A stretch of DNA of 34,307 bases from an uncultured Erysipelotrichaceae bacterium. Its GTDB lineage: Bacteria; Bacillota_I; Bacilli_A; Erysipelotrichales; Erysipelotrichaceae. Shown here piece by piece: positions 14,250 to 33,190 of the stretch. The translations under genes and the position numbers were made by a program. Each line of letters begins with the position of its first letter. The stretch's first letter is position 1. A model generated the notes under the pieces. That model worked only from the letters and a program-made list of their open reading frames with translations. It did no database searches and was not told the origin of the DNA. The stretch spans positions 1-34,307 of the forward strand of contig OMYM01000002.1 in NCBI GenBank assembly GCA_900315225.1. Direction: 5' to 3'.

Positions 14250-14815
14250 TGTAGTCGTGGGGAAAGAAAACGGATGATCTCAGCTTTTCTTTGCGTAGAA
14301 AAGTCGCTTAACGCATGAGCAACAAAACCATTTAAACGATTGATAATTGTTTTGTTTGTTGTATTGATATCTTTGCTTACCTCAATTGAGGTAAATGATT
14401 TCTTCCTCATGCACACTTTTCACAAGCTCACATACTTTTTTTGCGTAAAGTAGCATCATGCCAAGGAAATAATGGGTCTAAGATCTCAGGATGAGACATC
14501 TATAGGGATTCATAATACTCATTCACATCATATGCAAAGTATTCCTCTAGCGACCCTATTCCATGAAAGCCATAGCCATTCATGTCAAGGATATATCCAG
14601 ACAACAGACGCGCTGTTCTTCCATTGCCATCTTCAAAAGGATGGCTCTTGACCAACTCGTAATGGACAATCGCCGCAACAATCAAAGGATGATCATCCGT
14701 TGCATTGACATATTCAAGCAATTCACTCAACAACATAGGGATGTTGCAATATTCAGGTGTGAAAAAGGCAAGCGCCATTTCTTAACGAAAGACTGAAATA
14801 TTAGGGTTTCCTTCT
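14250..14815 (-). pseudogene. Fic-family (AMPylase-type) gene remnant
   Basis: The minus strand at 14778-14500 encodes a Fic core with an intact HPFEDGNGRTAR motif (about 14643-14608), the catalytic His loop of AMP-transferring Fic proteins. The gene is broken in several places. The same frame continues upstream through a TAA just before the Met at 14778 (VFR-stop-EMALAFF). It stops at TAG 14500-14502 right after YYESL. Sequence past this stop resumes in another frame (HYFLGMMLLYAKKVCELVKS) and then, after a second shift, as an HTH (SIEVSKDINTTNKTIINRLN), matching the usual Fic C-terminal winged helix. The N-terminal part is not found. A clear decayed gene next to the ATPase/TOPRIM-like module. 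Confidence 0.8.
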
Positions 14816-25367: not shown

Positions 25368-25381
25368 AGGAAGTGAACAAT

Positions 25382-26737
25382 ATGTATGATAACTTGAGAG
25401 CGATACTATATGCCATTTTGGCAGCTATACTCTATTCTCTCATGACCCCTGTGTCGAAGCTTTTGTTAATTAGCGTATCTCCTGTAAAGGAGGCTGGCTT
25501 ATTGTATCTTGGGGCAGGCGTGGGCATGTCGATTGTATATGTCTTTGGGAAGAAAGGCGACATGCCTTCTGTGCGCAAGGAGGATACAAAGTATGTTCTT
25601 GCTATGGTTGTATTGGATATGTTGGCTCCAGTTTGCCTGTTGGCTGGGTTGTCGATGTCTACGCCAGAGAGTGTTTCTTTGTTGAATAATTTTGAAATTG
25701 TCGCAACGGCGACTATTGCCATGGTTTTCTTCAACACAGACTCCGCAAATATTAGGTAATATTGGCTCTTTCGGAACCTGTGTCCAAAACGTTTCTTGGC
25801 TGGTTCTCTAATCCGAGGAGAGTAGACCCGCCAAGCTTCCAGAGAATGCTATTTTTTCGGTGGAAGGGGGACGCCTGAAATATCAACAATAAGAAAAGAA
25901 GTTAGGGACACATAGAAATGCTTCATGGCCTTATGCGAACGTTCGCGTAATTGCTCCCAATAGTTTTCGAATGCGTACAGACCACCTTCACAAAGCAGTC
26001 TATGCCTGAAGGCTTAAGGGCATCCATCTCCCTCGGTACTGCATACCTTCCATTTGACGCATGTCTTGCCACGTATAATCCCACCTGAATATAGTATTAC
26101 CTAATACAATGGTGGATTATACACCAATTAGGAAATGACGTGAAGCATGCCGAAACAAGAAGCGTCAACGGTTTTACGCTGGTTATTACCTAATAGTCAT
26201 CTTGTTACCTAATATTTAAGGAGTCTGTGCTTCAAAGAACACATTACCAAACGCCTTGCGTTGGCGATTGCCATCATCATATTATCGTGTGTCCTCCTGT
26301 CATTTGATGGAAATGATTCTCTATCTTTCTCGAAGGGGTCTTTGCTTGTTCTTCTTGCTTGTGTTTGCTGGGGGTTTGAAAACAACTGCACAAGATCTTT
26401 AGCAAGAAAGGACACCAGGCAGATTGTCATGATCAAGGGATTTGGTTCTGGCATGGCTTCTTTGGTGTTGTCAAGATTGGTGGGTGAAGGGGAGGCTTCG
26501 CTTGCGTCTTGTGTGTGGGTCATGTTGTTGGGTTTTTGTAGCATTGGCTTAAGCGTTTATTTCTATGTCTTGGCACAGGCAAAGATTGGTGCAGCCAAGA
26601 CAAGTGCATATTATGCTGTGGCTCCCTTTGTCGGGGTATTGTTGTCGTTGGTTCTGTTTCGGGAAATACCTGGGATGATGTTTTGGCTATCGTTTGTAAT
26701 CATGGCTTTGGGAGTGTATGTATCACTGGATGCATAA
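25382..26737 (+). pseudogene. EamA/DMT-family transporter gene interrupted by a mobile element
   Basis: The first half (25382-25734) encodes five hydrophobic segments of an EamA transporter (ILYAILAAILYSLMTPVSKL, AGLLYLGAGVGMSIVYVFG and more) up to ATIAMVFF. The second half (from 26236) continues KEHITKRLALAIAIIILSC through LAQAKIGAAKTSAYYAVAPF to the stop at 26737. Removing the 495-bp element plus one copy of its 6-bp target duplication (501 nt) restores one open frame of about 284 codons, normal for the family. With the element, translation stops at TAG/TAA signals inside its left end. Such transporters export small metabolites; substrate unknown. ATG 25382 follows AAGGAAG. Confidence 0.9.
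25735..26229. mobile_element. MITE-like non-autonomous element, 25-bp inverted ends, 6-bp target duplication
   Basis: Ends: 25735-25759 begins CACAGACTCC and ends AAATATTAGGTAA. The complement of 26205-26229 has the same two blocks, so 23 of 25 positions match (GC against TT in the middle). The flanking hexamer CTTCAA occurs at 25729-25734 and 26230-26235. The 12-mer TATTAGGTAATA occurs at 25750-25761 and, inverted, at 26095-26106 and 26184-26195, with an 11 of 12 match in the right end: candidate transposase sites. No intact transposase is encoded. At 25764 the sequence GGCTCTTTCGGAAC resembles an ISL3-type terminus, but no partner end is seen. Confidence 0.85.
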
Positions 26738-32265: not shown

Positions 32266-32281
32266 ACCAAGGGGATGCATG

Positions 32282-33190
32282 ATGCTTGAAACAAAACGAT
32301 TGATTATACGTCGTTGGGAAGACAACGATGCGGAAAACCTGTATGAATATGCCAAAGACCCAGATGTAGGTCCGATCGCTGGTTGGCCTGCCCATCAAGA
32401 TATTGATGAGAGCAGGGAAGTCATCAAACATGTTTTCACAGGCAAAGAAGCCTATGCCATCTGTCTGAAGACAGATGGCAAGGCCATTGGCGCAATAGAG
32501 CTAAAGCTAAACGGATATACCGACATGACATCGCGTGATGATGAGTGCGAGCTAGGCTATTGGCTTGGCAAGCCGTTCTGGGGACAGGGAATCATGCCAG
32601 AGGCAGTGCAAGAGATGCTTCGCCATGCCTTTGAAGACATTGCCATGGCAAAGGTATGGGTTGGATATTACGAGGGAAACGACAAATCGAAACGTGTTCA
32701 GGAAAAATGCAAGTTCCGCTACCAATGGAAATCGGAGAATGTCGATGTACCCTTGATGCATGAAAAACGGACAGGTCATGTCAGCAGTTTGAGCAAAGAT
32801 CAGTGGCAATGGGATAGGATGTTCTTAGCGGCTAGCGCCGTGCGTAGAGAAAGAAAGATCTCTAGATATGTGAGTGGCGGGGAAGTATCCGCCGCCATCT
32901 TGGCAAAGTCTGGTAGAATCTACACAGGTGTATGCATTGACACTTGTTCTACGCTTGGCATATGTGCCGAAAGAAACGCCATCTTCAACATGATCACAAA
33001 TGGCGAGCAAGAGATCGACAAGGTGTTGGCAATCATGCCGGATGGCACTTGTGGCGCTCCTTGTGGCGCATGCCGAGAACTGATGGTGCAGATAATGCCA
33101 GAGACATACAAAGACATCGAGATCATGCTGGACTATGAGAAAGAAAAAACCGCCACACTGGGGGCATTGACCCCCATGTGGTGGATATGA
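32282..33190 (+). CDS. GNAT acetyltransferase fused to a cytidine/blasticidin deaminase-like domain
   Basis: One open frame of about 302 aa with two enzymes. Residues 1-165: GNAT fold of the RimJ/RimL type, starting METKRLIIRRW-like (MLETKRLIIRRW), with the acetyl-CoA loop WGQGIMPEAVQEM. Residues about 172-302: cytidine deaminase fold with the zinc motifs CAE (ICAERNAIF, Cys and catalytic Glu near 228-230) and PCGAC (about 260-264), giving three Cys ligands. The deaminase half starts near DQWQWDRMFLAASAVRR as if it were once a separate gene. Substrates unknown; an antibiotic or modified-nucleoside function is possible. AAGGGG favours ATG 32282 over 32279. The stop abuts the convergent GNAT gene. 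Confidence 0.88.
   Translation: MLETKRLIIRRWEDNDAENLYEYAKDPDVGPIAGWPAHQDIDESREVIKHVFTGKEAYAICLKTDGKAIGAIELKLNGYTDMTSRDDECELGYWLGKPFWGQGIMPEAVQEMLRHAFEDIAMAKVWVGYYEGNDKSKRVQEKCKFRYQWKSENVDVPLMHEKRTGHVSSLSKDQWQWDRMFLAASAVRRERKISRYVSGGEVSAAILAKSGRIYTGVCIDTCSTLGICAERNAIFNMITNGEQEIDKVLAIMPDGTCGAPCGACRELMVQIMPETYKDIEIMLDYEKEKTATLGALTPMWWI

Follow-up and report, generated by a model that had tools for sequence, protein, structure and literature searches.

An EamA transporter gene is interrupted in the window, the 34,307-nucleotide stretch of DNA that was analysed, which corresponds to contig C275 in an assembly of 5.2 Mb and 591 contigs with a reported contamination of 9%. The 5' part of the gene (25373..25728) and the 3' part (26236..26737) lie on the plus strand, and each half matches PF00892 (E 8e-12 and 3e-13, respectively). 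A 495-bp element (25735..26229) separates them and is bordered by a left (25729..25734) and a right (26230..26235) copy of the hexamer CTTCAA, which on the basis of the sequence form a target site duplication. The left terminal inverted repeat, CACAGACTCCGCAAATATTAGGTAA, occupies 25735..25759 on the plus strand and the right one, CACAGACTCCTTAAATATTAGGTAA, identified by end comparison and genome search, occupies 26205..26229 on the minus strand; the first 25 bases of the element and the reverse complement of its last 25 agree at 23 positions. When the whole 34.3-kb window was scanned exhaustively for inverted ends spaced 100-700 bp apart and flanked by an identical hexamer, the runner-up scored 15/25, so the match between the two ends is far beyond chance. 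The sequence and the end scan thus bear out the element length, inverted ends and flanking hexamers that had been described in the first-pass annotation. Two other loci in the window were noted in passing. A 92-aa frame on the minus strand at 14500-14778 has just the C-terminal portion of a Fic domain, with the HPFEDGNGR motif, and is probably a truncated gene, and a plus-strand frame at 32279-33190 fuses a GNAT acetyltransferase domain with a cytidine deaminase domain.

When the two flanks are joined with one hexamer, a single open frame of 284 aa is obtained in which VFF runs into KEH in frame, confirming that excision of the element and one hexamer restores the gene. Within the genus, eight other genomes contain genes that match the joined protein, at up to 65% amino-acid identity; its named relatives come mostly from Firmicutes of the gut or rumen, with the top match in an Erysipelotrichaceae MAG of goat omasum (61%). 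Because the congeneric matches cross the insertion point, the comparison, which is at the genus and not the strain level, shows the uninterrupted gene to be the ancestral state. Loss of transporter function is a very probable consequence of the insertion. One could instead regard the insert as ancestral to the gene or as a functional piece of it, or as an assembly artefact, and not as a product of transposition, given that its exact form is single copy and the assembly is a metagenome-type draft. This account is opposed by the perfect target site duplication, the restored frame and the eight congeneric genomes.

It is also contradicted by a second copy with a different duplication. A DNA search revealed one other relative of the element in the genome, on contig C536 (1127-2267), and a search with the end pattern, allowing up to three mismatches, located exactly four 25-bp ends genome-wide, one pair in the window and the other in C536. 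The copy on C536 spans 1141 bp and is flanked by its own perfect 6-bp duplication (GTAAAT/GTAAAT), and we consider an ancestral or artefactual origin of the insert to be extremely improbable. The left terminal repeat has the same sequence in both copies. The difference between the two ends of the window element at positions 11-12 (GC versus TT), is also present in the C536 copy and is therefore ancestral and not the result of decay. A non-coding left-end segment of 162 bp (25735..25896, plus strand) is 95% identical to C536:1127-1288, while the right ~280 bp of the element are 87% identical. With an identity of only 87-95%, the window copy is not a fresh duplicate of the C536 copy; the perfect duplication and the intact gene halves support the earlier view that the insertion is recent. 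The annotation had also named two observations that would speak against an insertion, the lack of any other copy or related end and an ancestral insert in sister strains. The searches found another copy, that in C536, and the insert-free gene in relatives.

The two copies lose their similarity at the same left breakpoint, AATAAGAAA, at 25896 in the window and at 1288 in L005 (C536), and their interiors differ; beyond this breakpoint C536 carries ~300 bp without visible transposase homology. The possibility that the conserved left segment encodes a structured or regulatory RNA was considered and rejected: the window element had no Rfam match and the C536 copy had one chance-level miRNA match, and folding was no better than that of shuffled sequences (z -0.3 and -0.7).

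About 170 codons from the N-terminal part of a transposase, interrupted by one in-frame stop, lie on the minus strand of the C536 copy. The window copy retains the transposase promoter region and the first ~40 codons, followed by a 26-bp insert and an internal deletion. This remnant (25923..26072, minus strand) has a GTG start and ~40 codons that resemble the C536 N-terminus (80% identity); it is frameshifted by the insert and reaches a stop at codon 50. A promoter-like sequence, TTCACG-17-TATAAT, precedes it (26116..26144, minus strand), as judged by its match to the consensus. The earlier statement that no transposase is encoded is therefore correct for a functional enzyme, but the beginning of a transposase gene persists.

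The 26-bp insert, ATGGCCTTATGCGAACGTTCGCGTAA (25925..25950), is absent from C536 and includes a 20-bp palindrome, TTATGCGAACGTTCGCGTAA, at 25931-25950. A near-identical copy of the palindrome, TTACGCGAACGTTCGCGTAA, is found at 652-671 of L006 (C418), where it adjoins a different repeat, and the palindrome resembles two TTATGCGAAC-type tips placed head to head. Such tips are the inverted ends (doubled as ATTATGCGAACCCYGGTATTATGCGAAC) of another repeat family, mostly non-coding and present on at least three contigs, at ~188-648 of L006 (C418), ~1035-1340 of L027 (C18) and ~1500-1945 of L028 (C101). The repeat in C418 appears to split a transposase-like gene.

The 495-bp element shares with MITEs a short length, terminal inverted repeats, a target site duplication and the lack of a functional transposase. 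MITEs are also multi-copy, but the 495-bp form occurs once, together with one larger derivative, in a draft that may collapse repeats, and for this reason the element is called MITE-like. The proposal of a MITE-like, non-autonomous insertion is thus upheld by the ends, the duplication and the homologous C536 copy, but not with respect to high copy number. An autonomous partner had been expected elsewhere. The truncated, transposase-bearing C536 derivative has the same ends and a more distant intact element is present on contig C380, but neither an intact element with exactly the same 25-bp ends in the assembly nor an intact cognate transposase in the host's own genome, family or order was found, the transposase search returning only more distant relatives. 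Repeated insertion sequences are commonly lost from such fragmented assemblies. No copies of the element were found in 69 congeneric genomes or in the plasmids and phages searched, no relatives of the transposase in the plasmids and viral contigs searched, and no match to the C536 fragment among named genomes. C275, C536 and C380 are likely co-resident in one organism; because of the number of contigs and the level of contamination, C536 and C380 may come from another cell.

The C536 transposase fragment had no family match in Pfam or NCBIfam and was assigned via full-length relatives. In two congeneric genomes, G007 and G031, it matches ORFs of ~500 aa. Its identity in aligned columns is 40% to the G007 ORF, 38% to the G031 ORF and 31% to the C380 ORF, these ORFs being 490-498 aa long. 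The C380 element (L033:1217-3119), in the same assembly, is an intact IS1634-like element of 1903 bp with a 490-aa transposase (33% identical to the G007 protein), inverted ends that agree at 23 of 26 positions and a 5-bp target site duplication, TACAG. The two congeneric proteins match DDE_Tnp_1, and the best NCBIfam model for the G007, G031 and C380 proteins is IS1634 (E 3e-28 to 3e-19), with scores of 99 and 90 bits for G007 and G031 and 69 bits for C380, all below the 100-bit cut-off. A published re-classification of the IS4 family describes IS1634 elements as having C-----YT tips, 5-6 bp AT-rich duplications and a length of 1500-2000 bp (PMC2266710). The duplications CTTCAA and GTAAAT are of this kind, with 6 bp each, and the tip CACAGACT is found at both ends of the window and C536 copies. 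Of the ~500 aa DDE transposase, only the N-terminal ~170 codons are preserved in C536, and the relatives that supply the full length score below the cut-off. At 495 and 1141 bp, the two copies are shorter than IS1634 elements because both are internally deleted derivatives, and the window element is thus a derivative and not the insertion sequence itself.

The sub-threshold IS1634 scores, together with matches of the G007 and G031 relatives to the IS4_1 model (E 1e-17 and 1e-21), would also suit an element from another DDE family with 5-6 bp duplications, such as another IS4-related group, in which case the likeness to IS1634 would hold only at the superfamily level. We regard this as improbable, since all three relatives have IS1634 as their top-scoring model and the combination of a 6-bp duplication and a C-----YT tip fits IS1634 and not IS4, whose duplications are 7-13 bp (PMC2266710). 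G071 has three further similar elements (22% identity), which were left out of the comparison since they have different tips, TAGAACTTTCCC. These IS1634-like matches lie on C1 (L036, L037) of this relative from the same family and have 516-aa open frames; the two that were inspected have TAGAACTTTCCCAAT ends.

Our analyses indicate that a non-autonomous, internally deleted derivative of the IS1634 family has very likely transposed into the EamA transporter gene. This reading is carried by the ends, the 6-bp duplication, the second copy with its own duplication, the retained transposase start and the uninterrupted gene in relatives. The transposase would have been an IS1634-type DDE enzyme, provided in trans by a related full-length element. 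It may have recognized both tips by CACAGACTCC and a TAGGT motif at base 19, and mobilized the element into a 6-bp staggered cut at CTTCAA.

The window element contains four copies of the motif in question, TTAGGTAA. The motif is present at the left tip (25752..25759, plus strand) and the right tip (26205..26212, minus strand), with TAGGT beginning at base 19 in both, where it is a putative transposase binding site. A second right-end copy lies at 26186..26193 (minus strand), and the fourth follows the -10 box and precedes the start codon of the transposase remnant (26097..26104, minus strand). When the interior was shuffled 10,000 times, only 2 shuffles gave as many as two copies outside the tips. 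A CAC tip with TAGGT exactly at base 19 was seen at all eight ends examined, which comprise both ends of the window, C536 and C380 elements and the upstream end of those in G007 and G031; the G007 and G031 tips count for less than the other six because they were placed by likeness on contigs that lack the other end. The C380 version of the motif, TAGGTCGG, is present in seven copies, one per tip and five in the transposase leader. From this arrangement we infer that the TAGGT-containing motif may be a transposase binding site used for both end recognition and self-repression. The copy between promoter and start codon would then be an operator by which the parental transposase kept its own production in check. 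A more general proposal, which we advance only tentatively and which may well prove incorrect, is that this IS1634-like clade carries the base-19 motif at its tips and in its leader, that one protein binds the ends and represses its own promoter, and that element-specific flanks provide private specificity. The fixed-distance motif offers a testable guess on end recognition and expression control in little-studied transposases.

The C380 element resembles the window element in its CAC tips, in TAGGT at base 19 of both ends and in the repetition of the motif in the transposase leader, but differs in the remainder of its ends, its motif flanks (TAGGTCGG versus TTAGGTAA) and its 5-bp duplication; its transposase is probably not the cognate one. 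ISPfe2, an IS1634-family element of 1884 bp with a 6-bp direct repeat (PMC3281130), agrees with the window element in duplication length and, via the C536 copy and its relatives, in DDE transposase kinship, while the window element lacks a functional transposase and is about a quarter as long. The window element is a clear case of gene interruption by an IS1634-derived mini-element, and otherwise represents routine mobile-element biology. IS1634-derived MITEs are already published in Methanosarcina, with 23 copies of a 247-bp MITE from ISMba11 in M. barkeri (IR 20, DR 6) and 15 copies of a 249-bp MITE in M. acetivorans (PMC3852290). The window element has in common with the ISMba11 MITE its small size, its non-autonomous IS1634-derived nature, ends of ~20-25 bp and 6-bp duplications (PMC3852290). 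In contrast, it is longer (495 bp), keeps a transposase start, is single copy in the assembly and resides in a bacterial host, thus adding an example from an Erysipelotrichaceae-like, gut-type organism.
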